Source of the DNA: Hypomesus transpacificus
Taxonomy: Eukaryota; Chordata; Actinopteri; Osmeriformes; Osmeridae
Assembly (NCBI RefSeq): GCF_021917145.1
Contig: NC_061061.1
Coordinates: 4,039,390 to 4,103,389, forward strand
Length of the DNA stretch: 64,000 nucleotides
Direction: 5' to 3'
Shown one piece after another: positions 1-31,480 of this stretch (positions are counted from its first letter, which is position 1; every line of letters starts with the position of its first letter). Below the pieces are notes generated by a model. The model saw nothing but the letters and a program-made list of their open reading frames with translations. It did no database searches and was not told the DNA's origin. Position numbers and translations under genes: made by a program.

Positions 1-46
1 CCAGAGACTGAGGCCCCTAATGGACTGTGTGTTCCCTCCCTTCAAG

Positions 47-3000
47 GAGCCCGTGTAAATGCCAAAGACAACAAGTGGCTCACCCCTCTCCACCGGGCGG
101 TGGCATCGTGCAGTGAGGTACGTGGGATGGTCTCCGTCAGTCCCTCCCTTGCTCCGTCTTCTCTCGCTCTCTTTCCGCGTCTGTGTCTCTCTTTTGCGCT
201 CTCCGTTCGCTCTTCGGCCATCGCCGGTTTCTCTCGCCTCACCTCTCTCCTCTCCACTCTCTTCCTCTCCGCTCTCTCTCTGTTCCTCCACCGTCTGCGT
301 ACGTCTCCTGGCCCCGCTGCTCACCGCGACCCCCCCCCCCCCCGTCCTCTCCCCAGGAGGCGGTCCAGGTGCTGCTGAAACACTCGGCGGACGTCAACGC
401 CCGGGACAAGAACTGGCAGACGCCGCTTCACATCGCCGCCGCCAACAAGGCCGTCCGCTGCGCCGAGGCCCTGGTGCCCCTGCTCAGCAACGTCAACGTG
501 TCGGATCGGGCGGGGCGCACGCCGCTGCACCACGCCGCCTTCAGCGGTCACATGGAGGTCAGTCTGGGTCCGCCTGCCCCGCCCCCCCACACCCCCCTAA
601 ACGTACTAGACCTGAGGGTCAGATGTCCTTGAAATTGGAGCCGAAAAATATCGAAATCAACGCAGAACTTCAATCGATTGTCCATAGGGGCCAAGGCGGT
701 AGCTTCGTTATTTATCGTAGGCCGTGTTTGTGTTCGACCGAGCACTGCTTTGCGTTGGGAGCGTGTCCTCTCACCATGACCTTACGCTGCTCTGTTGGTC
801 TTCTATTGGATGCATCTGTTGCCGTCCCGTGTCTGACCCTGTGTCCACGCCCCCCCGGCCATCAGATGGTGAGGATCCTGCTGTCTCGAGGAGCCAACAT
901 CAATGCGTTCGACAAGAAGGACCGCCGCGCCATCCACTGGGCTGCCTACATGGGTAAGCCGACGCACACTTGTACATCTATATGTGGTACATTGTGTTCG
1001 GATCTCCCTTCTCCCCCCCCCCCCCTGATATTGAATCCGCCATTTTGACTATGTTCACATCTACACGGTCCAGCTAGAATTTTCTTTCACAAGGGACTGG
1101 GCCTGTGTGTTTGCGTCAGCTTTGCGTCTTTGCCGTGCACACCTCGTCAGGTGTACTGTGTAATCATTATTCGATTTTTCTGCGACAGTTGCAACTGAGC
1201 TGCCACTCTGCATACCTGGGTTATCTTTTGAACACTAAAGATAACGTTTTCTTTTTTCATTTTTTGCTGACATTCTTCTCCCCCTCTCTTTACATTTACA
1301 TGTTAGTCATTTAGCAGACGCTCTTATCCAGAGCGACTTACAGTAAGTACAGGGACATTCCCCCGAGGCAAGTAGGGTGAAGTGCCTTGCCCGAGGACAC
1401 AACGTCATTTGGCACAGACGGGAATCGATCCGGCAACCTTCCGATTACTTACCCGATTCCCTAACCGCTCAGCCAGCTGACTCCCCCTCTCTGTCTTCGG
1501 CGGTTTCGCAGGGCACATTGAGGTGGTGAAGATCCTGGCGTCCCACGGCGCCGAGGTGGCCTGCAAGGACAAGAAGGCCTACACGCCGCTGCACGCCGCC
1601 GCGTCCAGCGGGATGATCAGCGTGGTCAAGTACCTCCTGGACCTGGGCTCCGACGTGAGTTTCTACCGGCTCCCACCGGCTGTGGGGGGGGGGGGGGGGG
1701 TCTCCAACCCTGGTCCCGCAGAGCTGTCTACCTCCCCCCAAGGTCTTTGCTCCAACCCCTGTTGACGCGAGCCGGATTCAATACATCAGCCAGACCAATC
1801 AGAAGTCGGCTGTGCTCGATGAGGGTTCGAACTCCAGCTAGGTAGTACAAGGTCGTTCTCTGGGAGCAGGGTTGGAGACGTCTACTTTAGAGGATTCCTT
1901 CATGTTCATGCGGTATTATATGTTGTTTATAAAAGTGTTCGCTTGCATACGATTGGGATTGTTATGCGTGGAAGTCAAGATTAGGAACCATATAGTATTT
2001 AGGTTAGACTGCTAGGAAACCGTTGAAAGGAGCAATACCAAGAATTTCAGTGTACCAGTGGCAGATAAACTTGCAACTTGAGCTCAGCCCGCAGCGTTTC
2101 ATATTGAGCGGCCTGCTATTGACCGATGGGCCCCTCTGACTGTATTAGACTGCATCAACTGGACTAAAACAGCACTGAAGCCCTAATGGGATATGGAATG
2201 ATTTCCTGTATGATGTATACAGAAGAGTGACGCTGCTGAGCGCTCTGGACAGTCAGCTCTGTCTGCTCAGGCTGTCTCTAATGTCTCTAATCTATAATAA
2301 CCCATGACAATGGAGACACTGCTAATCTGAGCCCCGCCATCCCTCCCTCTCACTCCCTCCATCCCTCCCTCCCTCTCTTCAACCACTCTCCAACCCTCCC
2401 TCCCTCTCACCCCCTCCATCCCTCCCTCCCTCTCACCCCCTCCATCCCTCCCTCCCTCCCTCTCGCCCCCTCCATCCCTCCCTCCCTCTCACCCCCTCCA
2501 TCCCTCCCTCCCTCTCGCCCCCTCCATCCCTCCCTCCCTCTCGCCCCCTCCATCCCTCCCTCCCTCTCGCCCCCTCCATCCATCCCTCCCTCTCTTGAAC
2601 CACTCTCCATTTCTCCCTCCCTCTCCATCCCTCCCTCTCTTCAACCACTCTCCATCCCGCCCTCCCTCCCTCTCCGTGTCCAGATCAACGAGCCCAACAC
2701 CTACGGCAACACCCCACTGCACGTGGCGTGCTACAACGGGCAGGACGTGGTGGTGAACGAGCTGATCGAGTGCGGCGCCAATGTCAACCAGGTGAACGAG
2801 AAGGGCTTCGCCCCGCTCCACTTCACCGCCGCCTCGCGCCACGGGGCGCTGTGCCTGGAGCTGCTGGTGGGCAACGGTGCCGACGTCAACATCAAGGTGA
2901 GGGTCCGCCTCGCCGTCGCAGATCTGTTACACAACGCTCTAGAGCAGGGGTTCCCAATCCTGGTCCCCGGGCCTCCCTGCCCTGCATGTTTTAGACGTTT

Positions 3001-6000
3001 CCCTGCTCCAACACACCTGATTCCAATGAATGGTCGTTAGCAGGCTTCTGCATAACTAGATAACGACCCATTCATTGGAATCAGGTGTGTTGGAGCAGGG
3101 AAACGTCTAAAACATGCAGGGCAGGGAGGCCCGAGGACCAGGATTGGGAAGCCCTGCTCTAGAGTTTGGTTGGAGCTTTCCTCAGCCTGGGGGGGGGGTT
3201 AGCTTCTGCCCAGACTGAGCGTGTCCCCCTCGCCCCTCTTGACCCCACAGAGTAAAGACGGAAAGACCCCCCTCCACATGACGGCCATCCACGGGCGCTT
3301 CTCCCGCTCCCAAGCGGTCATCCAGAACGGTGAGGCCCTGTGAAGGGCAAACGCATCCTCCCCCCAGACTCCGATGGCTTCGCTAGTGAGGCGGGTCTTC
3401 GACAGACGTCGGACGGAAAACCGGTCTCCACCCCAGAAATAGAAACCACCTTTTTTAGAGCCTTTTAATACCGTTACATCGCGGGAGAGAGGGATAGGAT
3501 CGAGGGCGATGCCCTAGTTGTGACCCTGTTCTGTGTACACGCATATTTATACAAGGTTACATGAATAAACATACTGCGCTTCTGACTGATATGACATATT
3601 TCACACCAAAAAAAAAAAAAGTTGATATTTTTCATATCATAGAACAAGCATAGGTCCAACCTCCACCTTCATGACACGTGTTCGGTCCCTCCGTCTGCGC
3701 GGCAGCTCCGCGTCCTTGGCCGCCTCCGGACCCCAGTCCGTGTCCGGGCGGGTGACGACTGAGCAGGCTCTGTTGCGTTCCTTTGGCAGGCGCCGAGATC
3801 GACTGCGAAGACCGGAACGGAAACACACCGCTGCACATCGCCACTCGCTACGGCCACGAGCTGCTCATCAACACCCTCATCACCAACGGCGCCGACACGG
3901 CAAAGTAAGCCAGCGCACGGCCCCCCCCCCCCTCGCTGGGGGGTCACATGACCTGCACCTTAGTCGAATGGCCTCGTGGAATCACGGGTTTAGCTCGATG
4001 AGCCGCCAGCTCCTTGCGCGGGTGGAGTGCAAACGATGCTGGGTAAACGCGACGGGAATAACAAGTCTGTGATTTTGTTTACCCGTTTGCAGACGAGGAG
4101 TCCACGGAATGTTCCCCCTGCACCTGGCAGCCCTCAGTGGATTCTCCGACTGCTGCCGGAAGCTTCTCTCTTCAGGTTGGCAATGTGGGACGCCGTGTTC
4201 CTGGCCTGCATGTTCCCGCCTCGAATAACACTTTCATTTGATTAAAGCTATTTACTACGCTCGCTAAATTTACATTTAGTCATTTAGCAGACGCTCTTAT
4301 CCAGAGCGAAATAAATAGGAGGCCTTTGGTGTTATTAATTCCACTTTTAAGGATATTAAAGGTGATCAGGGCAGGGATTAACAGATACTTAGGTGTGTGA
4401 CTCCCGAAAAACCTTCTATGAACCCAGACCAGGAAGGGGGTCGTATAGCGCTCCTAATCTGCTCCTCTGACGCAGGCTTTGACATAGACACCCCGGACGA
4501 CTTTGGAAGGACCTGTTTACACGCTGCAGCAGCTGGAGGGTGAGTCGAAGAGCCCCTAGCTCTCCTCGTCACAGCACCTCCTCCGGCCAGAGTGCCTTCG
4601 TGGTCTGACGAGCTCCTGACTGATCTGCTGTCCCGCACCGCCTGATTGCTAATGGTCATTTTTTTAACCCCCTCCCCTAGGAACCTGGAATGTCTGAATT
4701 TGCTGCTCAACACCGGGGCAGACTTCAACAGAAAAGACAGCTTTGGAAGGTGAGGAACCTCACACTCCCCTTCATCTCCACCTGCGTCGAGAGTTTCAAA
4801 AGAATGTGACAAACCTGCTTTCAAACGTGGGTGGGGCAGCCGTTTGGAGGCAGCCATTAAACGTCATTGACTTCGTCATAAGCGACCGGACAGATTTGGC
4901 CGCCTCCAAAACGCTGTCGTGCCGCCGCCCCGCCTGTCATGAAACCCGTGCCCCCTCATGACAAACGCATCCGAGGCCTCACTGTGTTCCCACGTCCCTC
5001 CAGGACCCCCTTGCACTACGCCGCGGCTAACTGTAACTACCAGTGCCTGTTTGCCCTGGTGGGCTCCGGGGCCAGCGTCAACGACCTGGACGAGAGGGGC
5101 TGCTCGCCGCTCCACTACGCCGCTGCCTCGGACACGGACGGAAAGTACGAGTTTTGGGGGGGGGGATTTTGTCCATTTACTTGTCTTCCATGTTATGTGT
5201 GTGTGTGGAGTGGTTCTGTATTTTCCACAGTCATTACAGGTGTCATGGCTAAGTCTTTTTGTTTCGGTCTGGTTTCCCAGGTGCCTGGAATACCTGCTGC
5301 GAAACGACGCAAACCCGGGGATCCGGGACGGTCAGGGCTACAACGCCGTGCACTACGCCTCGGCGTACGGACACCGCCTCTGCCTGGAGCTGGTGAGAGA
5401 CACACGACGACACGGCGGGGGAGGGGAGAGGCCCGGGGCCCGCCGTCCCGACACATGCGTTTGTTGACAGTGCTGAATGTGGGTCACGTGGTCAGGGATT
5501 GCGACCGGGGGGGTTAATGTGGCGTGTGGCTTTTTTTTCGTTACAGATCGCGAGTGAAACGCCTCTGGATGTGGTGAGTGCCGACCGAGAAGCGGTCGTC
5601 CTTCTTCTACACCGCGGTGTCGTTTCGTCATTTGCCGCGTTCCGTTCACTCTTTTAGCCTGCGTCGCGTGTAGAAAAACCGACGCGTTCTTCCATGTGAG
5701 GTGTCGCCTATTTTCTGCGATTCGAAAGATGACTCCTCCCACCTCTGCTCCTCAGCTAATGGAGACGTCGGGGACAGACATCCTGAACGACTCTGACGTC
5801 CGAGCCCCCATCAGCCCACTGCACCTAGCTGTGAGTACCGCTGGAAGGTTGTTCTTCAGATAGATGGACTTGTGTGGTAACGTACAGACAAGCGTACATT
5901 TACTACCTGTAAAAAATAAAATTAAAAAAATGGTTATAGGCTTTACCAAAAAAGAAAACACCAAGTCAACGGTCGGTTCTCTCTCCACGTGTCATAGTTT

Positions 6001-9000
6001 GGGTCCTTGTATTGTGTCCAGGCGTACCACGGCCACCACCACGCCATGGAGGTGCTGGTGCAGTCGCTGCTGGACCTGGACGTGAGGAACGGCCAGGGGC
6101 GCACGCCTCTGGACCTGGCCGCCTTCAAGGGCCACGTCGAGTGCGTGGACGTCCTCATTAACCAGGGGGCCTCCATCCTCGTGAAGGACTTCACCCTGAA
6201 AAGGACCCCCATCCATGCTGCAGGTAGACCCCCCCCCCCAGTCGTTAAGCCGTCCTGTGCTCAGGTGGGAGTCGGATGGCTGAGCGGGTTGAGCATCGGG
6301 CTTGTAATCTGAAGGTTGCCAGCTCGATTCCCGTCCGGTGCGCATGACGCGGTGTCCTTGGGGCCAAGGCACTTCACCCTACTTGCCTCGGGGGGGGAAT
6401 GTCCCTGTACGTACTGTAAGTCGCTCTGGATAAGAGCGTCTGCTAAAAGACTACATGTAAATGTAACACGTGCCCCCTCTCCCTCTCTCCAGCCACCAAC
6501 GGCCACTCTGAGTGTTTACGCCTGCTGATCGGAAACGCCGACCACCAGAGCGCCGTGGACATCCAGGACGGCAACGGACAGTAAGGGAGCCGTTCGGGCC
6601 GGGGGACGTCTGTGAACTCGTCGACGTCTCTAGGTCACCGTTGTTGTTGTTTTCCCGTGCTCCCCAGGACCCCGCTGATGCTGGCGGTGCTGAGCGGGCA
6701 CACGGACTGCGTGTACTCCCTGCTCAACAAGGGAGCCAACGTAGAAGCCAAAGACAAGTGGGGGAGGACCGCGCTGCACAGGGGGGTGAGGAGGAGGTCT
6801 CGCTGGTCTTACAGGCACACACAGACGCAGAGTAGGAGTCCATCAGAACATGCCCTGCAACAACCACACGTCTGAGTGTGAATCTTTTATTTTTAGGTTG
6901 TCAATCTAGTTGGACTTGTTTTGTAGTATACATGGCTTGACCTTAATTCAAGTCAATAACATTATTTTAAGAAATCTTGTCTCGCGAAACGCTATTACTG
7001 CAGTGCCAGCAAAATGTACTTGTCTTAAGCATAAGCAAGCTCACTACGAACAAAAAAAAGATTCCACTTTGCAGTGTGGCGCGTATTCAGCTCTATGACA
7101 CGGCGTGTGTGTGTGTGTGTCCAGGCGGTGACGGGCCACGAGGAGTGTGTGGAGGCCCTGCTGCAGCACAGCGCCAGCTTCCTGACGCGGGACTGTAAGG
7201 GGCGCACCCCCATCCACCTGGCGGCCGCCTGCGGCCACATCGGGGTGCTGGGGGGGCTCCTGCACGCCGCCCAGAGCGTGGAGACCCTCCCCGTCGTCAC
7301 CGACAACCAGGGCTACACGCCTCTGCACTGGGCCTGCTACAACGGTAGGAGCGGGGCGGGAACGGCGCCGCGGTCGCTCGGCGGACGAGCGCGCGTCGCC
7401 GCGTAGGCTCGAGGCCTCAAGGGTTCAAATCCGGCCTCGGCCGTTTGGGGGGGTCGTGTTTTCCCCTCTCTCTCTCTCCCTACCGTTCCTGTCGTGCTTT
7501 ACTTACAAACTGTCCAATGTAGTATGTAAGGATGAAAAATGCAACAAACAAAACAAAAACCGTGTTCAGAAACGGTCCCGTCGTGTTCAAACCCCACAGT
7601 GGGTTTTTCAGGCCCCTCGCTTCGCAGCGGCTTCTCCCCTCGTCTGTCCACGTGATTCACACGGCGACGCGAGAAGAGCGTTCGCCTGCTCTGGAGCATC
7701 GTGCTGTGGGCGGGGGGGTCTCACGTGAGCGCGTGTCTTCCCCCGCAGGCCACGACACGTGTGTGGAGGTGCTGCTGGAGCAGGAGATCTTCCAGAAGAC
7801 GGAGGGCAACACCTTCAGTCCCCTCCACTGTGCCGTGTAAGAGCCCACGCACCTCCCTCCGTCGCTGCCGGGGGGGCGGATGTTTACGGGGATGGCGCAA
7901 ATTGTCATGGCGACGGCTGGGCTTTTCCCGGGCCCAAAGGCTAAGTGCACGTCTCCTTTTCTCCGGCAGGATTAACGACAACGAAGGAGCGGCCGAGATG
8001 CTGATCGACACGCTGGGTCCCGCCATCGTCAACTCGGCCGACGCCAAAAAAAGGTAGGTAAACATGCCGCTATTCGACGCTGCTCACGGGGACAGACTCG
8101 ACACTGGGGGTAGCGGAAGCAGACGTGGCAACTTGGGGGCACGGTAGAGTCGTACATCTCTTTGACGGAGCTCGTGAAGCGTAGGCGACGGGAAGTGACT
8201 GCTGTCTCTTTGTGGTTGTGCGCCGGGCCCAGGACCCCCCTGCACGCGGCCGCCTTCACCGACCACGTGGAGTGTCTCCAGCTGCTGCTGAGCCACAACG
8301 CCCAGGTCAACAGCGTCGACGCCTCGGGCAAGACCCCGCTCATGTTGGCCGCCGAGAACGGCCAGACCAACGCCGTCGGTACGGACCTCCCGCCTCGCCC
8401 ACCGCAAGGGGGTGACTTTGCGAAACCCGTTTCTGAGGTGCAGATTTGTCCATTTTGAGGATTCGTGACTTGTTTTGTTTTTGTTTCCTTTTTGCAGAGG
8501 TGTTGGTGAGCAGTGCAAAAGCAGACCTCACCCTGCAGGACGCCGTCAAGAACACTGCCTTGCATCTCGCCTGCAGTAAGGTGAGCAACGTTGACTTTGA
8601 ACATCATCTTCGTATACCCCAGACATGCGGTGGTCTTCTGGCGGCTTGTGGTTTCAGCATCTCGAATCAGTCTGACGTGTGTCACTCGCTTTTCGAAGGG
8701 GCATGAAACCAGTGCCTTGTTGATATTGGAGAAGATCTCCGACAGGAACCTCATCAACTCGACGAACGCAGCCTTACAGACGTACGTCTCCTTTGTCACG
8801 TTGCTCACCTGCCGTTAACGCCTAATGCCAGTTACCTTCAAGGAATGAAATGGTCGCAGCTTGTTCTAAGTATGACATCGATTAAATGTACACATGCCCA
8901 TTCTAAATGTGTGTTTTCTTTTTTTGGGGGTCAGGCCCTTACATGTGGCAGCTCGAAACGGTTTGACTGTGGTCGTGCAGGAGCTACTAGCCAAGGGTGC

Positions 9001-9521
9001 CAGCGTGCTGGCTGTGGATGAGAACGGTAAGTTCCAGGACAGCTGGCACCGCACCACCAGTTTGAAATCTCAGTGTGATACGGACACTCCGCGGCCCGAG
9101 CCAAGGATTGCCGCCGCAGCCACGGAGCTGAGAGCACAAACAGCGAAAACCAGTCAGCACGCGATCACTTGACGCATCTCCAGCCTGCGCTGACCTCTTC
9201 CTGTTGCCCCTCCCCCACCCCCCTCCCCCAGGTTACACCCCCGCCTTGGCGTGCGCCCCCAACAAAGACGTGGCCGACTGCCTGGCCCTCATCCTGGCCA
9301 CCATGATGCCCGTGTCCCACGGCACGCCGACGCCCAGCCTGCCCTTCAGTGCCATGAACCACTACACCACCACCACCAGCCCCTCCAAGAGCGTGACGTT
9401 CGACAGCCTGCCCGCGCTCCGCGCCGACCACAGCTCCTACTGCAGCTTCAACAACGTCGGCCGCCGCGACGGCTCCTACAAGGACGAGGAGCTCAACGAC
9501 TCCGACTCTGAAACGTACTGA
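47..9521 (+). CDS. ankrd28: ANKRD28, PP6 regulatory ankyrin-repeat subunit A (5' end outside window)
   Basis: Scaffold subunit of protein phosphatase 6. In the known family it binds the catalytic subunit through SAPS-domain proteins. Twenty-five exons are visible: 47-117, 357-557, 866-953, 1512-1654, 2684-2896, 3251-3329, 3790-3904, 4093-4175, 4476-4539, 4681-4749, 5004-5144, 5281-5392, 5547-5573, 5756-5830, 6022-6223, 6493-6580, 6668-6785, 7125-7344, 7749-7836, 7970-8053, 8233-8378, 8498-8580, 8699-8781, 8935-9026, 9232-9521. All joins keep frame and give 990 residues, against about 1050 in human ANKRD28, so roughly 60 N-terminal residues lie upstream. The protein is almost entirely tandem ankyrin repeats (TPLHxAA motifs). 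It ends in a non-ankyrin tail closing with [10 protein letters not shown], as in human. Exon 5547-5573 is a 27-bp microexon. Assignment to ANKRD28 rather than ANKRD44 or ANKRD52 rests on the tail and on the HACL1-COLQ neighbours. Confidence 0.95.
1291..1486 (-). mobile_element. tRNA-derived SINE, full-length copy in ANKRD28 intron
   Basis: Read on the minus strand, it opens with a tRNA-like head (GGCTGAGCGGTTAGGG resembles a pol III A box). About 50 bases on is a B-box-like GATCGATTCCC. It ends with the conserved tail containing AGAGCGTCTGCTAAATGAC. Four further copies of the same family lie at 4268 (fragment), 6266, 11297 and 25830. I have not assigned a family name. Confidence 0.85.
1702..1878. 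mobile_element. Possible short inverted-repeat MITE
   Basis: The left end reads TCTCCAACCCTGGTCCC and the right end reads GGGAGCAGGGTTGGAGA, which are roughly inverted copies. Spacing and intronic position suit a small hAT-like MITE. I could not define a clean target-site duplication, so boundaries are tentative. Confidence 0.4.
2336..2680. repeat. Pyrimidine-rich tandem repeat (CCCTCCATCCCTCCCT type)
   Basis: Irregular repetition of CCCTCCATCCCTCCCTCCCTCTC blocks fills the end of the ANKRD28 intron and runs to within a few bases of the acceptor at 2683. Minus-strand reading frames across it encode only Gly/Arg/Glu-rich repeats and are artefacts. Confidence 0.9.
2945..3156. mobile_element. 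212-bp fold-back MITE of hAT type
   Basis: Ends are CAGGGGTTCCCAATCCTGG and its near-exact inverse CCAGGATTGGGAAGCCCTG. Inverted similarity continues for about 85 bases on each arm around a short loop near 3030-3068, so the strand can form a long hairpin. The 8-bp duplication CTCTAGAG flanks it at 2937-2944 and 3157-3164, typical of hAT insertion. It contains no coding sequence and lies in an ANKRD28 intron. Confidence 0.9.
4268..4310 (-). mobile_element. SINE tail fragment
   Basis: Only the terminal segment of the SINE family seen at 1291 is present (TTTAGTCATTTAGCAGACG through CCAGAGCG). It lies in an ANKRD28 intron. Confidence 0.75.
6266..6466 (+). mobile_element. tRNA-derived SINE, full-length copy, sense orientation
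   Basis: The head GGAGTCGGATGGCTGAGCGG, the B-box-like GCTCGATTCCC and the tail TAAGAGCGTCTGCTAAAAGAC are all readable on the plus strand. It lies in an ANKRD28 intron just upstream of the exon that begins at 6493. Confidence 0.85.
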
Positions 9522-11296: not shown

Positions 11297-11488
11297 TACA
11301 TTACATTTAGTCATTTAGCAGATGCTCTTACCCAGAGCGACTTACAGTAAGTACAGGGACATTCCCCCCGAGGCAAGTAGGGTGAAGTGCCTTGCCCAAG
11401 GACACAAATCATGTGGCACGGCAGGGAATCGATCCGGCAACCTTCGGATTACTAGCCCAACTCCCTCACCGCTAAGCCATCTGACTCC
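11297..11488 (-). mobile_element. tRNA-derived SINE copy
   Basis: Same family and orientation as the copy at 1291. On the minus strand the head is GGAGTCAGATGGCTTAGCGG, the B-box-like segment is GGATCGATTCCC, and the element finishes in the conserved CTAAATGACTAAATGTAAT tail. Confidence 0.85.
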
Positions 11489-11907: not shown

Positions 11908-11915
11908 TATAAAAG
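11908..11915 (+). promoter_or_regulatory. TATA box of the small secreted-protein gene
   Basis: TATAAAAG lies about 220 bases upstream of the start codon at 12131. A transcription start about 30 bases downstream would give a noncoding first exon ending near 11997 at the donor GTGAGA. That would splice to the acceptor TTTTTCATACTAG at 12129. A canonical TATA box suits a tissue-restricted gene. Confidence 0.6.
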
Positions 11916-12130
11916 CCAAACAACACCATGAAAGCTGAGAAGCACAGAAGATTACATACTTTTTTACATTCACATAAACGGAACTGAAGAACGATATGTG
12001 AGATGATGCTTTTGATTAGGTGTCAAATACATGAATGTTGTGACAATTCTTTTTACCGGGAAACACTGGTGGTTGGTGTCCTGCTAATGTACGTGTTTTG
12101 TTTTTATTTGAAATGATTTTTCATACTAGG

Positions 12131-12637
12131 ATGAGACTGATTTCCCAGACAGCAGCTGCTGTGATCACTGTGTGCATCGTCTCCGTTATGTCAGTGCCTG
12201 CAGCGAACATAGAGGAGTGGAAATCTCTCAGCAACCCACAGAACAGAGCTCTGGTAAGTCTTCTACATCTCACCCCGTTGTTGGTTTATTGATTGAAACT
12301 GTTTAGTTATTTATGCATGAATGGGGCTTACTCTAAGTTTGGGATATTATTAATTTGTATAAACAGAATGCATCTGTGTATTTCTTTACCTCTCACAGTT
12401 CTTAAGTAACTTAGTAATTGACTTTAGTTGCATATTAATTCATCATCATTGAATTAATGATTCAATCAAAATAAAATGAATGTACAAATTTAGTTTTTCC
12501 AGATTCTACAATCATATCTTGAAAGTAGAGACATGAACTCACTGGAAAAGCAGCAGCAGGACTTCGACAGCAGACTCCCAGTATCCAACTTGGAAAATTA
12601 CCAGCTTCATTTTCCAAACAACATATATGACGTTTAG
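12131..12637 (+). CDS. Orphan small secreted protein, 85 residues (candidate peptide hormone precursor)
   Basis: I do not recognise this gene. The coding exons are 12131-12253 and 12503-12637, joined in phase 0 by a GTAAGT donor and a TTTTTCCAG acceptor. The upstream context predicts an untranslated exon at about 11938-11997. Residues 1-24 form a signal peptide: MRL, a hydrophobic core rich in Ala, Val and Ile, then SVPA before a likely cut at Ala24/Ala25. The mature part of about 61 residues starts ANIEEWKSLSNPQNRAL. It has no cysteine, dibasic site or amidation glycine, is probably helical through residues 26-60, and ends FPNNIYDV. TATA box, signal peptide, small exons and a nearby AATAAA all suit a real gene. 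It lies where human BTD sits, between ANKRD28 and HACL1, but is unrelated to biotinidase. A fast-evolving neuropeptide or secreted factor is possible, but the function is unknown. Confidence 0.65.
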
Positions 12638-12746
12638 TTAAAACCAATTATAATTGTAATGTAGGTCTACCGTGTGTTTTTTGTGTGTGTCTTGTATGAT
12701 GTTAGATGTTTGTGCAACAAGTGTTCATTATATTTTATGCAGACTT

Positions 12747-12752
12747 AATAAA
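12747..12752 (+). terminator. AATAAA polyadenylation signal of the small secreted-protein gene
   Basis: AATAAA lies 110 bases past the TAG at 12635-12637. That spacing is typical of a compact 3' untranslated region and supports a short independent transcript. Confidence 0.65.
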
Positions 12753-13329: not shown

Positions 13330-14476
13330 ATGGAAGAGGTTACTGGGGCTCAGCTTATTGCTGAAGCATTAAAAGCTCAGGTAAGATTGTATCCATTTCG
13401 TTTGTTTCGTTAAAGTTGTGATTTATTTGTGCCCTTGCAATGACACACTAAACTACGCAGGAATTAGCCTAAGTGTACCAAAGGTCATTGAACTTAAATT
13501 TGTTAGCACAAGCATACACAATTTGTGGCCAAATGTTTACTTTCAACTGAAAAATGTTACTCGAAACCATAACTCAATGTGACATGTGAATGTGACTTTC
13601 TTTTCGGCAGAATGTAGACTATATGTTTGGAATAGTTGGTGTTCCAATCATAGAAGTAGCAATGGCTGCACAGGCTTCAGGAATCAAGTATATAGGGATG
13701 CGCAATGAACAGGCGGTAAGAATAACTCATTTAGTATCACTTAATATAGGGTGCTATTGTCCATCTAGTCCTAATATTATATCTAATAGTCTGTGTATCA
13801 CCCAACAGGCTTGTTATGCTGCATCTGCAGTTGGATATCTTACTGGACGGTATGACATAGGATAAATCAAGTTCTTAGGTGCCAAGGAACCCAAATTTTA
13901 CTCACTATTTTGACATAATTTGTTTGTTTGTACATTTAGTACTGTCTCGTTTTTTCTTCTAGTCCAGGGGCCTGTTTGGTTGTGTCTGGGCCTGGCCTCA
14001 TTCATGCACTTGGTGGGATGGCTAATGCCAATGTGAACTGCTGGTAAGACTTTCAAAACATAATACCTTACACATGAAAGATTTGTCTTTTATGCTTCAA
14101 ATTCCTGTGAGTTTGTTAGCAGGTCTCTCTCATTGTTTCACTCACTCACTCATTCACTGCTTCTGTCTGTGTAGGCCCGTGGTCGTCATTGGAGGCTCCT
14201 CAGATTCCAACCAGGAAACAACAGGGGCATTTCAAGAGTTTCCTCAGGTAAGTGTTTTTGTTGTTGTTACTTTTTCTAAAAAGTAGCGTCTTAGTTGAAC
14301 GAACACGTGTCTTTCAGGTGGAAGCATGCCGACTGTACAGCAAGTTCTCTGCCCGGCCAAGCAGTTTGGGGGCCATCCCATCTGTTGTCGAAAAGGTAAT
14401 TACATCTATCTTATTCAGACCTTCAAGGGCACAATTTTGCAAGACTGTACTACCAAGTCTCACTTCATGTTTTGTT

Positions 14477-14524
<48 letters not shown>

Positions 14525-17500
14525 AGGCGGTACGCACAAGCATGTATGGACGCCCAGGTGCCTGCTACGTGGACATATCTGGAGACATGGTCAATGCCAT
14601 GGTGGACAGGACCAAAGTCAGGTGTGTTTTCATCAACCGAAGTTGTGTGGGATGGCCTTATCTGTTAAGTGTTGCTGCATCATTTCATAATCGAAACTTT
14701 TATCATTTACTTTGTTCATCATTGATTTGAATGATTTGAATGAACGTTTTCCTTGTTTTATCTGGGGCCAGAGTGGTGTCCTGTTGTCTACCTCCTCCAG
14801 TGAGTTTGGCTGACCCTGTTGCAATCACCGAAGCACTCACTGTCTTGAAAGGAGCCAAAAGGCCTTTACTCATCATTGGCAAAGGTAGCAAACAATCTCC
14901 TATGTTTACTTAATCTGTACCTAGTCTATGTCCGACTCGGGTCACTCAGAGCAAAGGCAACGGCGACGGTTCAAGTCATGAATGATTCCGTGTAATGGCG
15001 CCCCCTACAGGCGCAGCCCATGGGAGAGCAGAGGTTTCTCTCAGGGAGCTGGTGGAAAGCTGTGGTCTTCCCTTCCTGCCCACTCCCATGGGGAAAGGAG
15101 TGCTGCCCGACGACCATCCCAACTGTGTGTCTGCTGCTCGGTCCAGGTCAGCCTAGCTTCCCTCACCAGCCCGGGCAGTATCCCCTCCCCACTCGCCACC
15201 TCTCACAGTATCTCACAGCAAAGTGTGCGTTTGTTTAGGAAACAAAGGCTGAGTGTGGTTCCATGCGCAATTTCTCCTATTGAACACGCTCTCTCTCTCT
15301 GTCCATTCTTTTTTGTCTTTTCTCCATTTTTTTTCCCTCTCTCCTCCGGTTTCTTAATGGATGCTTCTGATGTCCAGAGCTCTTCTTCAGGCAGACGTTG
15401 TGGTGCTGTTCGGTGCCAGGTTGAACTGGATCTTACACTTTGGCCTCCCTCCGAGATTTGACCCGGACGTAAAAGTCATCCAGGTACAGTAGGGGCAGAA
15501 CATGCCGTGTTTCGTTGCAGAAGTCATGCTTGATCTTTCACAGTCCTGGACGGTAAGTGCAAGGGTGGAGCGAAGTGAAATATTCACATTCCCTAACATA
15601 GAGGTGTTATATAAAAGAAAGTCTGAAATCAACTTTGAAACCGCACATCATTTTTGGTACAGCAGCCATAGTCCTAGCTGGCCAATAGCCAGGTCTCCAG
15701 CTGTCAGAATGGACTCCACATGCTTACCGCTGGTATGCTGTAGTAACATAGCATGTGTGTTATTTCTGTCCAGGTTGACCTTTGTGCCGAGGAGATGGGG
15801 AACAATGTGAAGCCTGCTGCTGCTCTCCTCGGGGACATCAACTCTGTTGTTACTCAGGTAAACCCTAAAAACCCACATAGATCACCCGATCCACACAACC
15901 ACATAACCCTTTAGTAGCTTCGAAGTATTTGGGAGAGTTGCTGCTGTGTTTAACTGTCTCTGGCTGTTGCTACTGTCGTCAGCTCCTTGAGCACATTCGC
16001 AAAGACGGCTGGATATATCCACCCGACGCCGAGTGGTGGACAATCCTGAAAGACAAGATGGCCGCTAATGCAAAATCATCCAAGGTGTGAGTTACTCTTC
16101 CTAGAATGTCTCCTCCTAGAATTCTCTAGAATACACATTGAGAAGTTTCTCCTCCTACACTAAAGTACATAATTATGTAGATATTCTGTAGACATGACAC
16201 TTGCACAATGACATTGTCGTCCAACTTCGAGTCGGGGAAATGTTGTCCTCATTTTTGCCTTAATTCTTGCCTCTCCAGGCTCTGGCTCTCCACTCGGTCA
16301 TGCCTATGAACTACTACAACGTGTTCCACCACATTGCCCAGCTGCTGCCTCGCGACTGCATCATCGTCAGCGAGGGTGCCAATACCATGGACATCGGACG
16401 CACCATGCTACACAACTACCTTCCCAGACACAGGCAAGGCATGCCCGCTCAGGCAGAGGTCAAAGGTTACATTCACCTCACGTTTGTTGGCCTCTGCCCT
16501 GTTTGGTCTAGGGATGCACCGAATCCAGATTTTTGGGGTTCGGCCGAATACCAAATCCACTGGTTAAGATTCTGCCGAATACCGAATCCTACTCCCATCC
16601 TCAGTCCATTAACACAGTAAACACATTAATGAAGTAAACAACGTCCACAGCAGTGTTTTAGTTTTTTTCTTTACTGTAAAAAAAAAGAAAAGGCAACGTT
16701 ATGCCAGGAAGACAAGTGGGAAAAACGATTTTGACAATAACCATAAGCCTATCCCAAGATCCAATCAATATCCAAAATATTAGCCTTTAAGATTTCTTGA
16801 AATTCTTTTGGATGTTTCATACGCAAATGTTTTAACAGCGGAGATGTTGTGTATTGTTTAGGGTCCTTGCCACCACGAGACAAATTGGCATTGCAAATTG
16901 AACATGTAGCTCGACTTGAATCGCCTTCTTTTGACTGAAAGTACTGCCAAACAACACTTTTTCTGCTCACGAGTTCCATTTTCACTTTCTCAGCCTACTG
17001 CATTGAACGCTCCACCTACGTAAACACCTTCCCGTAATCAACGTTGGCGTCATTATGTCGACCAGCGTAGCGCGCGTTGTGCAAGCGTAGGGTTCGGTGG
17101 AAAATAATTCTAAGGTTCGGCCGAAACCGAACCCCATCAAAAAGCCCAATATTCGTCAAAATCCGAATCCTGGATTCGGTGCATCCCTAGTTTGGTCATC
17201 GCCTTGAATACTGTTATGTCATGTTAGGTGGTTGCTCATGAATGTCATGACCCTCTGGAACTCATGTGGATGTGTGGCCTTGTAAGCGAACCCGGTGTGT
17301 GTTTGTGGGCAGGTTGGACGCTGGCACGTTTGGCACCATGGGGGTCGGCCTTGGCTTTGCCGTCGCGGCCGCAGCCGTGGAGAGGGGGAACGGCACGGGG
17401 CAGAGGGTGGTGTGCGTGGAGGGGGACAGTGCCTTTGGCTTCTCCGGTATGGAGGTAGAGACCATGTGCAGGTGTGTAGCGTCTCACTCATCTCTCTCTG

Positions 17501-19394
17501 TCCCGCTACCTCCTCACCACACAGGCCTTCAGGTCGAGGAATGATTCACACTATCATAACAAATCAGTTGTCATTTGTGTCGTCCTTTTTACAGTGTCAT
17601 AGAGGGCTTCACCTTTGCTGGTAGAACTGCACCTAAATCAGCCCAAAGCCGCAAGGTTCAGATTGTTACTCTCCCCTCTGTATCAGGTACAAGCTTCCTG
17701 TGATCATCATTGTGGTCAACAACAACGGCATCTACAGTGGAGTGGACTCTGAGACGTGGGAAGTGATGGGGAAGATGGGAGATCTGACCACAGTGTAAGT
17801 CACATGACCCAGGTGTCCTCATGCTCTGTGCCTTAACACCCTGCAAGGATGTTCTGGAGGATTCCACTGAGGGACGTTCTCGTCTGAATTTTTTTTCGGG
17901 TGCCCCAGTAGCTCACTGGATGGGAACACGTACCATTAAGGCTAATCCCAGGCGCATGGGCCAGGGTTCGAATGGAGGCCATTTTCTGCATGTCTCCCCC
18001 CCCCCCCCCCCCCCCTTCCATGCTTTCCTGTCTTTCATCAACTGTCCTATCAATAAAATGAGAGGACAGATCAAATCAAAACAAAACATATACTCATCCT
18101 GTTTGGTTGTGTCCACCCCAAGTGCCCCGCCAGTGACCCTGCTGCCGGACGCCCGCTACGATGAGGTCATGACTGCGTTCGGGGGCCAGGGCTTCCTGGT
18201 GAGGACGGAGGAGGAGCTGCGGAGGGCCCTGGAGCTCAGCCTGAGCGAGTGGGAGCGGCCCAGCCTCATCAACGTCCTCATCGACCCCGCCTCGGACAGG
18301 AAGCAACAGGTGACTGGGGCCGGGGGCACGCTTGCGTCGCAGGCCTTCCGGCATGCGGAGAGGTGTGTCTCTTGAGAAAGGGGAGAAGACGGCCGTTCGG
18401 GGGAAGAAACGGCAGACGAAGTCAGACCAAGTCAATGTATCTCTCTCTAGGGCTGTCTATCTCAGTAGGGTTGTCTCTGTCCCCGTAGGGCTGTCTCTAT
18501 CCCTAGGGCTGTCTCCGTCTCTGTAGGGCTGTTTCTGTCTCTAGGGCTGTTTCCGTCGCTGTAAGGCTGTCTCTTTAACTCTGTAAGGACTGTGTGACTG
18601 ACAGGAGCGTTCGGTAAGCCTCGACTCCAGGTGCACTTCAGAACCATTGTAGTCCACAGACAATCCCGCCACATCACACCAATCTGGCCTTTCTATTTGA
18701 AGAACCCCTTTAATTAGAGGGGTGAACCTCCTTTTGTTTATGTGGAAGGTATCCAAGCAACCCCCATGCTTGAGGATTGGATGCCATGGTGACAGTGGGA
18801 CACTTGAGCTGGTCTCTGGTCTGCTGAAACACAGGGCCCACACACGGGTCGTGGACACAGCCAGGGCCACAGAGCTGTACCTCATTTAACAGATAGGAGA
18901 ACACATAGGATATTGGTTGTATTTGCTCAAAACATAGCCGGCACAAGGCTTAAGCGAACACAGGGGCCCTGAGCGGCTGCTTAGGGCCCCTGTGGCTACC
19001 AAAGGGGCCCCAAGAGCACATGAATTTACAGTTTAATGTAATAAAAATATATATAAATACTTTTTTAAGCGACGCTGAGGGGCCCACACATCAATTTTGC
19101 TTGAGGCCCCATAAAGGCTTGGGCTGGCCCTGGATCAAAATACCTTGCCTACCTTGCCTACAGCAAGGAATGCATAGAAGAGCTTCAGGGATGTCACATT
19201 TATTCACGTCACATGTAATTGGTGATGGAACATTCTAGATTGAGTCACTTCTATGGAATTCTTGCTTAACTTTTTTCAGGCATAGCAATACCTCAGGATG
19301 TCTCTCACTCTCCCATGTTTTTTTTCTTGTTTGTTGTCTTGCTTGCTGTCTGTGTTTCTAGGAGTTTCCTTGGCTCACTCGTTCTAACCTGTAG
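13330..19394 (+). CDS. hacl1: HACL1, peroxisomal 2-hydroxyacyl-CoA lyase 1
   Basis: Thiamine-diphosphate enzyme that cleaves 2-hydroxyacyl-CoA (for example 2-hydroxyphytanoyl-CoA) to an aldehyde and formyl-CoA in peroxisomal alpha-oxidation. Exons: 13330-13380, 13611-13715, 13809-13849, 13963-14043, 14175-14247, 14318-14395, 14527-14621, 14772-14884, 15011-15146, 15378-15483, 15774-15857, 15983-16084, 16279-16433, 17313-17471, 17687-17794, 18123-18309, 19362-19394. The frame closes at 568 residues (human 578). The cofactor-activating Glu is residue 50, in MRNEQA. The ThDP/Mg motif runs from GDS at 444-446 to NNNG at 471-474. The protein ends SNL, a non-canonical PTS1-like tripeptide (human SNM). 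The intron after 16433 has a GC donor, the acceptor at 14526 follows 45 cytosines, and a hAT element lies in the intron at 16434-17312. Confidence 0.97.
14478..14522 (+). repeat. C45 homopolymer serving as the polypyrimidine tract of HACL1 exon 7
   Basis: Forty-five uninterrupted cytosines are followed by AAAG and the exon starting at 14527. The acceptor's pyrimidine tract is therefore almost pure C. Homopolymer length may be an assembly estimate. Confidence 0.9.
16509..17189 (-). mobile_element. Non-autonomous hAT transposon, 681 bp, in a HACL1 intron
   Basis: Terminal inverted repeats begin TAGGGATGCACCGAATCC and end GGATTCGGTGCATCCCTA. The 8-bp target duplication GTTTGGTC lies at 16501-16508 and 17190-17197. 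Sub-terminal copies of GGTTCGGCCGAA repeat inside both ends. The interior carries one minus-strand reading frame for a BED zinc finger and no catalytic transposase region. Confidence 0.93.
16749..16985 (-). pseudogene. BED zinc-finger remnant of a hAT transposase (78 residues)
   Basis: The frame begins [17 protein letters not shown] and holds a BED-type finger: a conserved Trp-Tyr-Phe region, then CSIC with paired cysteines, then HLRMKH with paired histidines. In hAT transposases and ZBED proteins this domain binds terminal repeats. The RNase-H-like catalytic core and the dimerisation domain are missing, so it cannot be a transposase alone. The intact frame and ATG leave open a DNA-binding peptide, but transcription is unproven. 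Confidence 0.75.
17898..18074 (+). mobile_element. tRNA-derived SINE of a second family
   Basis: The head has CAGTAGCTCACTGGATGGG (A-box-like) and AGGGTTCGAATGGAG (B-box-like). A body with CTGCATGTCTCCCC, a C run and TTTCCTGTC follows, ending in CAATAAAATGAGAGG. It lies in a HACL1 intron, ending about 50 bases before the exon at 18123. A diverged relative on the minus strand lies at 46330-46459. Confidence 0.75.
18940..19135. mobile_element. Possible MITE with GGCCC-rich ends
   Basis: AGCCGGCACAAGGCTTAAGC on the left and GCTTGGGCTGGCCCT on the right are loosely inverted. Internal GGGGCCC blocks are also arranged as inverted copies. It lies in the last HACL1 intron. Boundaries are uncertain and no clear target duplication was found. 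Confidence 0.4.
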
Positions 19395-23500: not shown

Positions 23501-26500
23501 CTGTCCTCTTGCCTCTAAACCCCAGCCTCCATACTCTAGTCTCCAGCCTCTAACCCCCAGCCTCACGATTCCAGTCTCCAGCCTTTGCCCATCAGCTTTC
23601 AACTTCCAGCCTCCAACACAGCCTCTATCCGTCCTCCAGTATGCCTGTCTTGTGGCCCCCCTTCCACTTTTCGAAAGACAGAAGGACTGGCAGGACAGAA
23701 CCCTACAGGCGTGCCTCTCAGGGCAAGGAGACAGTGTTGGATGAAGGCCATCAAGGGAGAAGTGAGGTCCTGAACGATCAGTGGTTGTGGTTTAACCGCC
23801 AAGCACTCCCGATGGGAACAGGATAGTGGCTGCTCTTCAACTGGAGGAGCCTTGCAGCATTGCAGTGCAATTTAGCTTAGTGCTTCAGCAAGGCTATAAA
23901 TCATTTTATTTCCCACAAGCAGTGGGTCCTGTTCTATATTCAGCCCATCATTTAATTAAAGAGAGCAAAGTGACAGGGCTCGTTAAAGTAATCCTCCCTC
24001 CACATGTGCTATTGGTGGACACACAGCAGACAGGATGTCAGCATCTCCATCCTGTCCAACTAAGCACAATACATACACACCGTGTGCCCGTTTAGTCATT
24101 TCATTCCCCTCTTTTATAAACCTGGTGGTCAGTGATAGCTGTCTGCCCCTTATACTGGCTCAGATCTCTGATTCCATAAGTGGTTGATTGATGCTAGGTC
24201 AGGAAGTCGCTGAACAGTTCTGTCAGCTCAGCTTCTTCATCTCAGGACCAGGTTCTAGTGGTTTTGTTCATCTCCCCAACAGGGAAGAACAGGTCCGCCT
24301 GGTCTCCCAGGGCGACAGGGACCTGCTGGATGGCCTGGACCCAATGGGCCCAAAGTGAGTAAGTCCCATATCTTCTGTGCAGACCTGTCAGTAAAGCTCA
24401 CGTGAAATAGTAAACGTGTGCGTGCGATCGAATGGGAACAATCAGCGTATCCCTTTGCGTTTGAGGTTTTGTAGATCATGTCAGATAATACTTTATAGAT
24501 AAGAAAACTGTGTTTTCTCACGTGTGTTTGTGGGGGGCAGGGTGAGAAAGGGGACCCTGGATTGATGGGTCTACCTGGAGCAAGAGGGCCCTTTGGCCCC
24601 AAGGTATGTGAAGGATCCTATGTGAAAAACCCAACGGCATCATTAACAGACATGAACACCCCAATCTGCAGGACACACCATTCAAATCCAAATGTGTGTG
24701 TTCTATTCTAGGGTTTACCTGGATACAAAGGGGAAAAGGTGAGCGGTCGCTCCTATCATCCTGATGAAAGGACCCTGGTCCAGACATCATGGGCGGGGAG
24801 TGGGTTATTATCATTATGTAGGATGTTCCAGTAGTCAACAGTAGGTGTTACTCTTTTTGCTGTCTCATTAGGGTTCCCGTGGAGACCACGGGGAGAGCGG
24901 AATCAAAGGAGACAAGGTGGGTGGAGCTACGACATAGCTATGAGATCACCAACACTGACACAGTCAACTGTAATACTAATAGGAAAGACAGAAATGTATT
25001 AACTTTCTCTTCTTTTCCCCCACGCAGGGTTCAATGGGATACCCTGGGATGCTTGGACAGAAAGTGAGAAATGCATTCATTTAGGAAGAACTATCAACGC
25101 TTTTCCATCCTTATTATCACCAAAGTTGTATTGCAGTGTCCGCTGTTTGTGTGGTTGTTGACCTGAGTGAATGACTTGGTTTGTCAGGGTGAAATGGGTT
25201 CGAAAGGAGAACCGGGCCTCTCGGGGAATAGAGGCCCAGCCGGCCGCCCAGGGAAGAGGGGTAAACAGGTAAGGGATACATCGGATTTGGACGTGATATC
25301 ATATCATGTGTTCCTCGGGCTGTCAGGAAGTCATGTTGGCTTAATTTGGAACACCTTTCCCAATCCTCTATTTTAAGTTCCCCACCATGCAGTGTCACAA
25401 GATTTCTGTGAAATGTTTGGATCTCTGGAACACTGTTGTTGTTTTCACGTCTGTGCGTCTGTCTCCAGAGCTGAATCCGAATCCGTTTAGTCAGATGAAC
25501 CCATTTAGTCAGACTAACCCTGACAAATACTTGATTAGATATGTGATCTATGTGATCTATGTGATCTATGTGATCTATGTGATCGTCTGTGTGATCTTCA
25601 GGGCGGGAAGGGAAATGCAGGAACCATAGGCCCTCTAGGGCCCGCGGGCCCCCAGGGGTCCCCCGGCCACCCTGGTCCTCCTGGTATACCAGCCTCAGGT
25701 AGGAACCTCAGATCATGGTCAGTGTGTTCTGGGATGGTTCTTTTGTGTATGGGATTGTTTACTGCTGCTGTGCGAATTCGGTTGTTTTCGATTTTTTTGG
25801 ACTGTATTCTGTAACAATGCACACGGTATTACATTTACATTTAGTCATGTAGCAGATGCTCTTATCCAGAGCAACTTACAGTAAGTACAGGGACATTCCC
25901 CCCGGGGCAAGTAGGGTGAAGTGCCTTGCACAAGGACACAACGTCATTTTTGCACGGGTGGGAATCGAACCGGCAACCTTCTGATTAATAGCCAGATTCC
26001 CTAACAGCTCAGCCATCTGACCCCCTTTTACCTGACCCCCGTATTACCTGAATGCTTGACATTCATCACAGTGAATTGAGTCAGACTCTGGCCTAATGGT
26101 TTGTTGGGAGCACACATTGTGGGCTCTGTGTCTGTGGGAAAGGCCGTCCTCTCAGCGTGAAAAGCTGCAGCCCCTCGTGTATTACAGCAGATCAGGAAAT
26201 AACAGCCGAGCGAATTTAGCTTCGGGGGAACTCGATCCTCCCGAGGTGAACCAGACAGTTAGGGGAGGGGAAGTTTGAGTCATGACATCATGTCCCTAAA
26301 ATGGATTGATAGAGGTCCACCCTACTTAAAGATTTACAAACATGATGTCACCACATCATCAAAAGGACAGCTGCTGTCTTTCTGGGCAAATGAAGTCGAT
26401 TGCTCTACCGTCTTGATAGATGAGACCGAGATAGAACATTTCACAGAGGTGTGGTTGTGTTTACGACAGCTCAAGATCTGTCAGTTTGGCCTTGTACCTA

Positions 26501-30519: not shown

Positions 30520-31480
30520 GCAATGGTTGAGGCAGAGGGCTGAGGCAGAAGGCTGAGAGAGGACTGAGGCTGAGGGCTGAGGCAGAAGGCTAAGAGAGGA
30601 CTGAGGCTGAGGGCAGAGGCAGAAGGCTGAGAGAGGACTGAGGCTGAGGGCTGAGGCAGAAGGCTCAGAGAGGGCTGAGGCAGAAGGCTGAGAGAGGACT
30701 GAGGCTGAGCCAGAAGGCTGACAGAGGACTGAGGCTGAGGCAGAAGGCTGAGAGAGGGCTGAGGCTGAGCCAGAACGCTGACAGAGGACTGAGGCTGAGG
30801 GCTGAGGCAGAAGGCTGAGAGAGGACTGAGGCTGAGCCAAAAGGCTGAGAGAGGACTGAGGCTGAACCAGAAGGCTGAGAGAGGACTGAGGCTGAGCCAG
30901 AAGGCTGAGAGAGGACTGAGGCTGAGGCAGAAGGCTCAGAGAGGACTGAGGCTGAGGGCTGATGCAGAAGGCTGAGAGAGGACTGAGGCTGAGCCAAAAG
31001 GCTGAGAGAGGACTGAGGCTGAGCCAGAAGGCTGAGAGAGGACTGAGGCTGAGCCAGAAGGCTGAGAGAGGACTGAGGCTGAGGCAGAAGGCTCAGAGAG
31101 GACTGAGGCTAAGGGCTGATGCAGAAGGCTGAGAGAGGACTGAGGCTGAGGCAGAAGGCTGAGAGAGGACTGAGGCTGAGCCATAAGGCTGAGAGAGGAC
31201 TGAGGCTGAGACAGAAGGCTAAGAGAGGGCTGATGCAGAAAGCTGAGAGAGGACTGAGGCTGAGGTTTGAGGTTGAAAACAGGCAGAAGGCTGAGAGAGG
31301 ATTGAGGCAGAGGGCTGATGCAGAAGGCTGAGAGAGGACTGAGGCAGAGGGCTGATGCAGAAGCTGAAAGAGGACTGAGGCTGAGACAGAAGGCTAAGAG
31401 AGGACTGAGGCAGAGGGCTGATGCAGAAGGCTGAGAGAGGACTGAGGCTGAGGGCTGAGGCAGAGCGCTGATGTAGAAGA
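30520..31480. repeat. Minisatellite, 30-bp core with longer variants, about 960 bp
   Basis: The core is about 30 bp, built on GGCTGAGAGAGGACTGAGGC plus TGAGCCAGAA, with interspersed longer variants that add TGAGGGCTGAGGC. Because the core is a multiple of three, long minus-strand frames encode a Ser/Gln/Pro/Ala decapeptide repeat. These lack start context, splice logic or a domain and are repeat artefacts. The array lies between the convergent 3' ends of COLQ and PLEKHA8. Confidence 0.95.

Follow-up and report, generated by a model that had tools for sequence, protein, structure and literature searches.

A small gene between ANKRD28 and HACL1 in Hypomesus transpacificus very probably belongs to the C2orf66 (DUF4720) secreted-protein family

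What kind of gene lies in the short interval between ANKRD28 and HACL1 in Hypomesus transpacificus, and does it have relatives in other vertebrates? The question arises from a 64,000-nucleotide stretch (the window) of contig C2 of this 437-Mb genome, for which a sequence-only reading had proposed an unrecognised, lineage-restricted or fast-evolving gene for an 85-residue secreted protein, placed in no known family and occupying the position held by BTD in human. Upstream of it lies the 3' part of ANKRD28 (1..9521, plus strand; ankyrin exons, with the C-terminus at 9521), named by eye, and downstream a gene at 13330..18375 (plus strand, end approximate) whose exons match TPP_enzyme_N (E 9.6e-31) and TPP_enzyme_C (E 2.3e-8) and which we take, in line with the earlier reading, to be HACL1. 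COLQ, also identified by eye, comes next in the order, and all four genes are on the plus strand. The small gene is probably a real protein-coding gene and, as judged from its sequence, very probably represents the C2orf66 (DUF4720) family in this fish, encoding a secreted protein.

Gene structure and signal peptide

The TATA box reported earlier is present (TATAAAAG, 11908..11915, plus strand; one of three plus-strand copies in the 64 kb), and so are the stop, which ends at 12637, and the AATAAA at 12747..12752 (plus strand). The non-coding first exon (11938..11997, plus strand), whose start is placed about 30 bases 3' of the TATA box, is putative and its support is graded low: a donor does exist (TAT/GTGAGA, at 11998), but far from being good it is moderate, ranking only in the top 4.9% of GT sites by a splice-site matrix with approximate frequencies. 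By the same matrix, the acceptor preceding the start codon (AG 12128-12129) is fair (top 4.8%), and the donor of exon 2 (CTG/GTAAGT, 12254) is strong, ranking among the best 0.3% of GT sites on the plus strand. Exon 2 (12130..12253, plus strand), coding from the ATG at 12131, carries the signal peptide and the beginning of the mature chain; a phase-0 intron (12254..12493, plus strand), which has two acceptors in tandem, one with its end at 12493 and one at 12502, separates it from the coding part of exon 3 with its stop (12494..12637, plus strand), whose first residues would be Phe-Phe-Gln with splicing at 12493. Two phase-0 coding exons with good splice sites had been described, and the ATG, the end of exon 2 at 12253 and its donor stand as given, whereas the start of exon 3 probably does not.

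The predicted signal peptide would span 12131..12202 (plus strand), that is, 24 residues if it is cut after V-P-A, the site proposed in the earlier reading. The simple rule used to scan for signal peptides is satisfied at 12131, in agreement with the earlier claim, and the earliest cut that it allows is after residue 21. Across the 64 kb the same rule is passed by 10 starts on the plus strand, including two nested starts of this gene's own frame (12113 and 12131), and by 11 on the minus strand, so this feature by itself is not rare.

When 12100-12660 was searched as DNA against the genome, there was a single match, the query locus itself, which rules out a repeat-derived sequence. Four UnaL2 LINE 3' tails are found in the window (1301-1354, 11305-11358 and 25839-25892 on the minus strand and 6403-6456 on the plus strand), one of them about 0.6 kb upstream of the TATA box, and a long tandem array at 30528-31471 has a unit of about 30 bases together with longer-period forms.

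Family membership and a tandem acceptor

Spliced at the acceptor originally chosen (12502), the 85-residue product matches one Pfam family by hmmscan, DUF4720, with a score of 24.9 bits (E 1.9e-5) that falls below the curated cut-off of 27 bits. An in-frame AG nine bases upstream (12492-12493) would add Phe-Phe-Gln, and the resulting 88-residue form matches the DUF4720 profile above the cut-off, at 40.2 bits (E 3.1e-10), a gain of 15.3 bits; the match runs from residue 12 to residue 65 and covers profile positions 8-60 of 96. The coding part of exon 2 alone matches DUF4720 at E 8.4e-4. That this family, PF15846, is the C2orf66 family is indicated by the mature chain of human C2orf66, which serves here as an identity check and does not come from a database record, and which scores 135.3 bits (6.6e-40) against DUF4720. 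Pairwise alignment with this human chain gives 15 identical residues of 29, ungapped, for the 88-residue form, over a core whose first half (residues 28-41) is encoded at 12212..12253 and whose second half (residues 42-56) at 12494..12538, both on the plus strand. For the 85-residue form the figure is 13 of 29, with a three-residue gap at the exon junction. When the mature chain of the window gene was shuffled, none of 5000 sequences reached the real score against that human chain, in either form. Beyond the 29-residue core the alignment is poor, the tail of the mature chain having no confident counterpart in C2orf66, and this, like the partial coverage of the Pfam profile, agrees with the earlier suggestion of a fast-evolving protein.

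These comparisons, based on homology, make it most likely that exon 3 begins at 12494 rather than at 12503 and that the 88-residue form is the one to be favoured, the splice site having probably been misread by nine bases; the proposal of a compact secreted-protein gene stands, with a product length more likely to be 88 than 85. It is also conceivable, if considerably less likely, that gene and family are as described here while the acceptor is 12502, Phe-Phe-Gln being a pyrimidine tract read by chance. By site score 12502 is the stronger acceptor (3.36, top 3.1% of AG sites, against -5.6, the median, for 12493), and the in-frame pyrimidine tract yields Phe-Phe on its own. Against this, the family score depends on which residues are inserted: five arbitrary triplets in place of Phe-Phe-Gln gave 28.2-31.8 bits, five out of five below Phe-Phe-Gln and by 8.4-12.0 bits, which suggests that about 3-7 bits of the gain come from closure of the gap and a further 8-12 from Phe-Phe-Gln itself. 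Moreover, the alignment gap at the junction disappears with these residues, and the AG at 12492-12493 is the first to follow that at 12426-12427. Since 12502 has the better site score, both forms may be made, and the nine-base tandem acceptor is likely to be an annotation trap.

The family match contradicts the idea of a lineage-restricted orphan gene, which we regard as highly improbable. There was no match in PDB, the 85-residue form found none in NCBIfam, and the coding part of exon 3 alone none in Pfam, as might be expected of an orphan, but DUF4720 is matched above its cut-off and the core aligns without a gap. Gene lists of human, chicken and turkey also name C2orf66, and a zebrafish table has a row for c16h2orf66, 'chromosome 16 C2orf66 homolog' (PMC11403715), a fish gene annotated to the same family. 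Just as improbable is that the open frames fell together by chance, or that the gene has decayed and is no longer expressed; the 21 starts that pass the signal-peptide rule leave room for coincidence, yet both exons are open in phase, the above-cut-off match crosses their junction, and a TATA box and a poly(A) signal are present. The apparent orphan thus joins a family of secreted proteins that has a name but is unstudied.

The ANKRD28 neighbourhood and the origin of the locus

Searching the genome with the ANKRD28 tail detected four further loci, on contigs C4, C18, C9 and C23. Those on C18 and C9 adjoin RNF41-like genes (USP8_interact) and are for this reason read as ANKRD52 copies, while the C23 locus is read as ANKRD44 because it is flanked by an SF3B1-like frame (by eye) and, on the opposite side, by a PIP5K-type kinase, with a raftlin gene at a distance of 46 kb. 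The C4 locus (C4:8480173) is a second ANKRD28-like gene, and about 2.3 kb from it lie the only two Vanin_C matches found in the genome, both above the cut-off (C4:8477347-8477912); one partial piece of this BTD-like gene reaches 20.6 bits for Vanin_C, below the 23.4 cut-off, and its N-terminal piece matches no family. GPR3-like and WASF2-like frames, seen by eye, are also near this locus, and we take these two neighbours to belong to another human region. Neither form of the window gene product has a Vanin_C match in Pfam, and, with the genome's matches located on C4, a BTD remnant is ruled out.

In human, ANKRD28 presumably follows BTD. A single 107-kb human deletion removes part of BTD, the whole of HACL1 and part of COLQ, so that these three genes are adjacent (PMC5428951, PMC6071571). 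Most simply, C2 and C4 would carry a pair of teleost duplicates that go back to a single ancestral ANKRD28-BTD-HACL1 block, of which the C4 copy would have kept BTD, and the C2 copy HACL1 and the DUF4720 gene. A raftlin gene lies 0.47 Mb from the ANKRD28-like locus on C4, whereas on C2 the distance between raftlin and the window is about 10 Mb, which supports the C2 block at chromosome scale only. To say that the small gene holds the position of BTD is therefore true of the interval but misleading about the gene, which does not replace BTD, probably kept on the C4 block.

The window gene resembles C2orf66 of human and C7H2orf66 of chicken and turkey in being small, in sharing the core EEWKxLxNPxNRxLFFxxLQxY and in lying near an ANKRD28/44-type gene, ANKRD44 being a paralogue of ANKRD28. 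The neighbours differ, however. In printed gene lists, the order GTF3C3, C2orf66, PGAP1, ANKRD44 is found in human (PMC4919381) and turkey (PMC7460020), followed in both by SF3B1, and in chicken (PMC11050503), where SF3B1 heads the list. In cattle, C11H2orf66 is printed on chromosome 11, with no neighbours given (PMC4032272), at odds with the expected block; this may reflect an error of naming or the existence of a second gene. Located between ANKRD28 and HACL1 and not beside PGAP1 and ANKRD44, the window gene does not have the position of a strict C2orf66 orthologue. A family member by ANKRD28 in the fish and by ANKRD44 in human, chicken and turkey suggests that two copies arose in the genome duplications early in vertebrate history and that opposite ones were then lost, and we consider it reasonably probable that the window gene is the ANKRD28-side duplicate (ohnologue) of C2orf66, the three land vertebrates keeping the PGAP1-ANKRD44-side copy. 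Overall, the locus offers an ordinary annotation and, through this possible opposite retention of duplicates, a modest evolutionary point. The zebrafish c16h2orf66, which presumably lies between ankrd28b and hacl1, would be the orthologue of the window gene.

That the gene is instead the true C2orf66 orthologue, moved to the ANKRD28 locus, seems unlikely. It would account for the single DUF4720 match in the genome, although PF15846 was a search of low sensitivity, finding the window locus alone at 17 bits (E 1.73), and the search with the human chain, which found nothing and missed even the window locus, was uninformative. No credible match came from tblastn over the 30 kb downstream of the four ANKRD28-like loci (best outside the window E 0.24, with exon 3), nor over 60 kb around PGAP1 together with the 20 kb that precede each of the loci on C23 and C4 (best E 0.19, with the human chain), and a scan for the core motif over these stretches and the window detected the window gene only. 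A move would also fit the rearranged state of the ANKRD44-like block on C23, where PGAP1 (C23:1036472) and the ANKRD44-like gene (C23:8591784) are about 7.5 Mb apart, as opposed to adjacent in the human, chicken and turkey lists. Nevertheless, it would have required an unlikely chance landing beside the paralogue of the gene's own neighbour, and raftlin genes occur on the contigs of both blocks, albeit 10 Mb off on C2; both points argue against a move.

Predicted product and possible function

After loss of the signal peptide, the 88-residue product would be a secreted, cysteine-free chain of about 64 residues with a predicted net charge of -4. Human C2orf66 presumably carries a signal peptide as well. 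The chain after residue 24 contains no cysteine and no dibasic site, as noted in the earlier reading, and no N-glycosylation sequon; with zero dibasic sites, a dibasic multi-peptide hormone precursor is ruled out. An amphipathic helix at residues 38-59 is unsupported, its moment being reached by 17509 of 20000 shuffles. The core, which begins soon after the cut, could be the working part while the tail drifts, and its location near the mature N-terminus would suit a partner-binding role. In ghrelin/motilin-type precursors the active part comes directly after the signal peptide, and the window gene is similar to them in its compact, TATA-box layout and in the early position of its conserved part. 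Unlike them, it has no dibasic site and no Pfam hormone match, and the likeness is at most one of working principle.

In the accessible portions of the literature on C2orf66, DUF4720 and PF15846 we found no functional test and several bare list entries. The human protein is described in one such portion as small, uncharacterised and expressed in few tissues at a low level (PMC11323535). In zebrafish, c16h2orf66 is raised by 7.3 log2 units in slc4a7-morphant eyeballs and is among the 15 top raised genes, which also include gh1, urp2, ghrh, npvf, otpb, pomca, several hox genes and the cardiac cmlc1 (PMC11403715). The co-raised pituitary, hypothalamic and hindbrain or spinal genes suggest the presence of other tissue in the eyeball sample and, by extension, neural or neuroendocrine expression of c16h2orf66, a weak hint, given that cmlc1 and the hox genes form the pattern to be expected if other tissue had been carried over. 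In addition, p53 signalling is reported to be raised in these morphants (PMC11403715), and human C2orf66 is one of the genes that were given weights for p53 activity in motor neurons (PMC10119258); the rise may equally be a p53 response.

With such hints as a guide, it is a tentative guess that nervous or neuroendocrine tissue secretes the product as a signal or a binding factor, one that acts with no dibasic processing. More speculative still is the broader idea that DUF4720 is an undescribed neuroendocrine family of secreted signals, older than the genome duplications of vertebrates, of which fish and land vertebrates kept opposite duplicates, the fish 'C2orf66 homolog' being a different gene from human C2orf66. 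If this were true, the genes called C2orf66 in fish and in tetrapods would be different duplicates, a distinction that matters whenever function is carried over from zebrafish to human.
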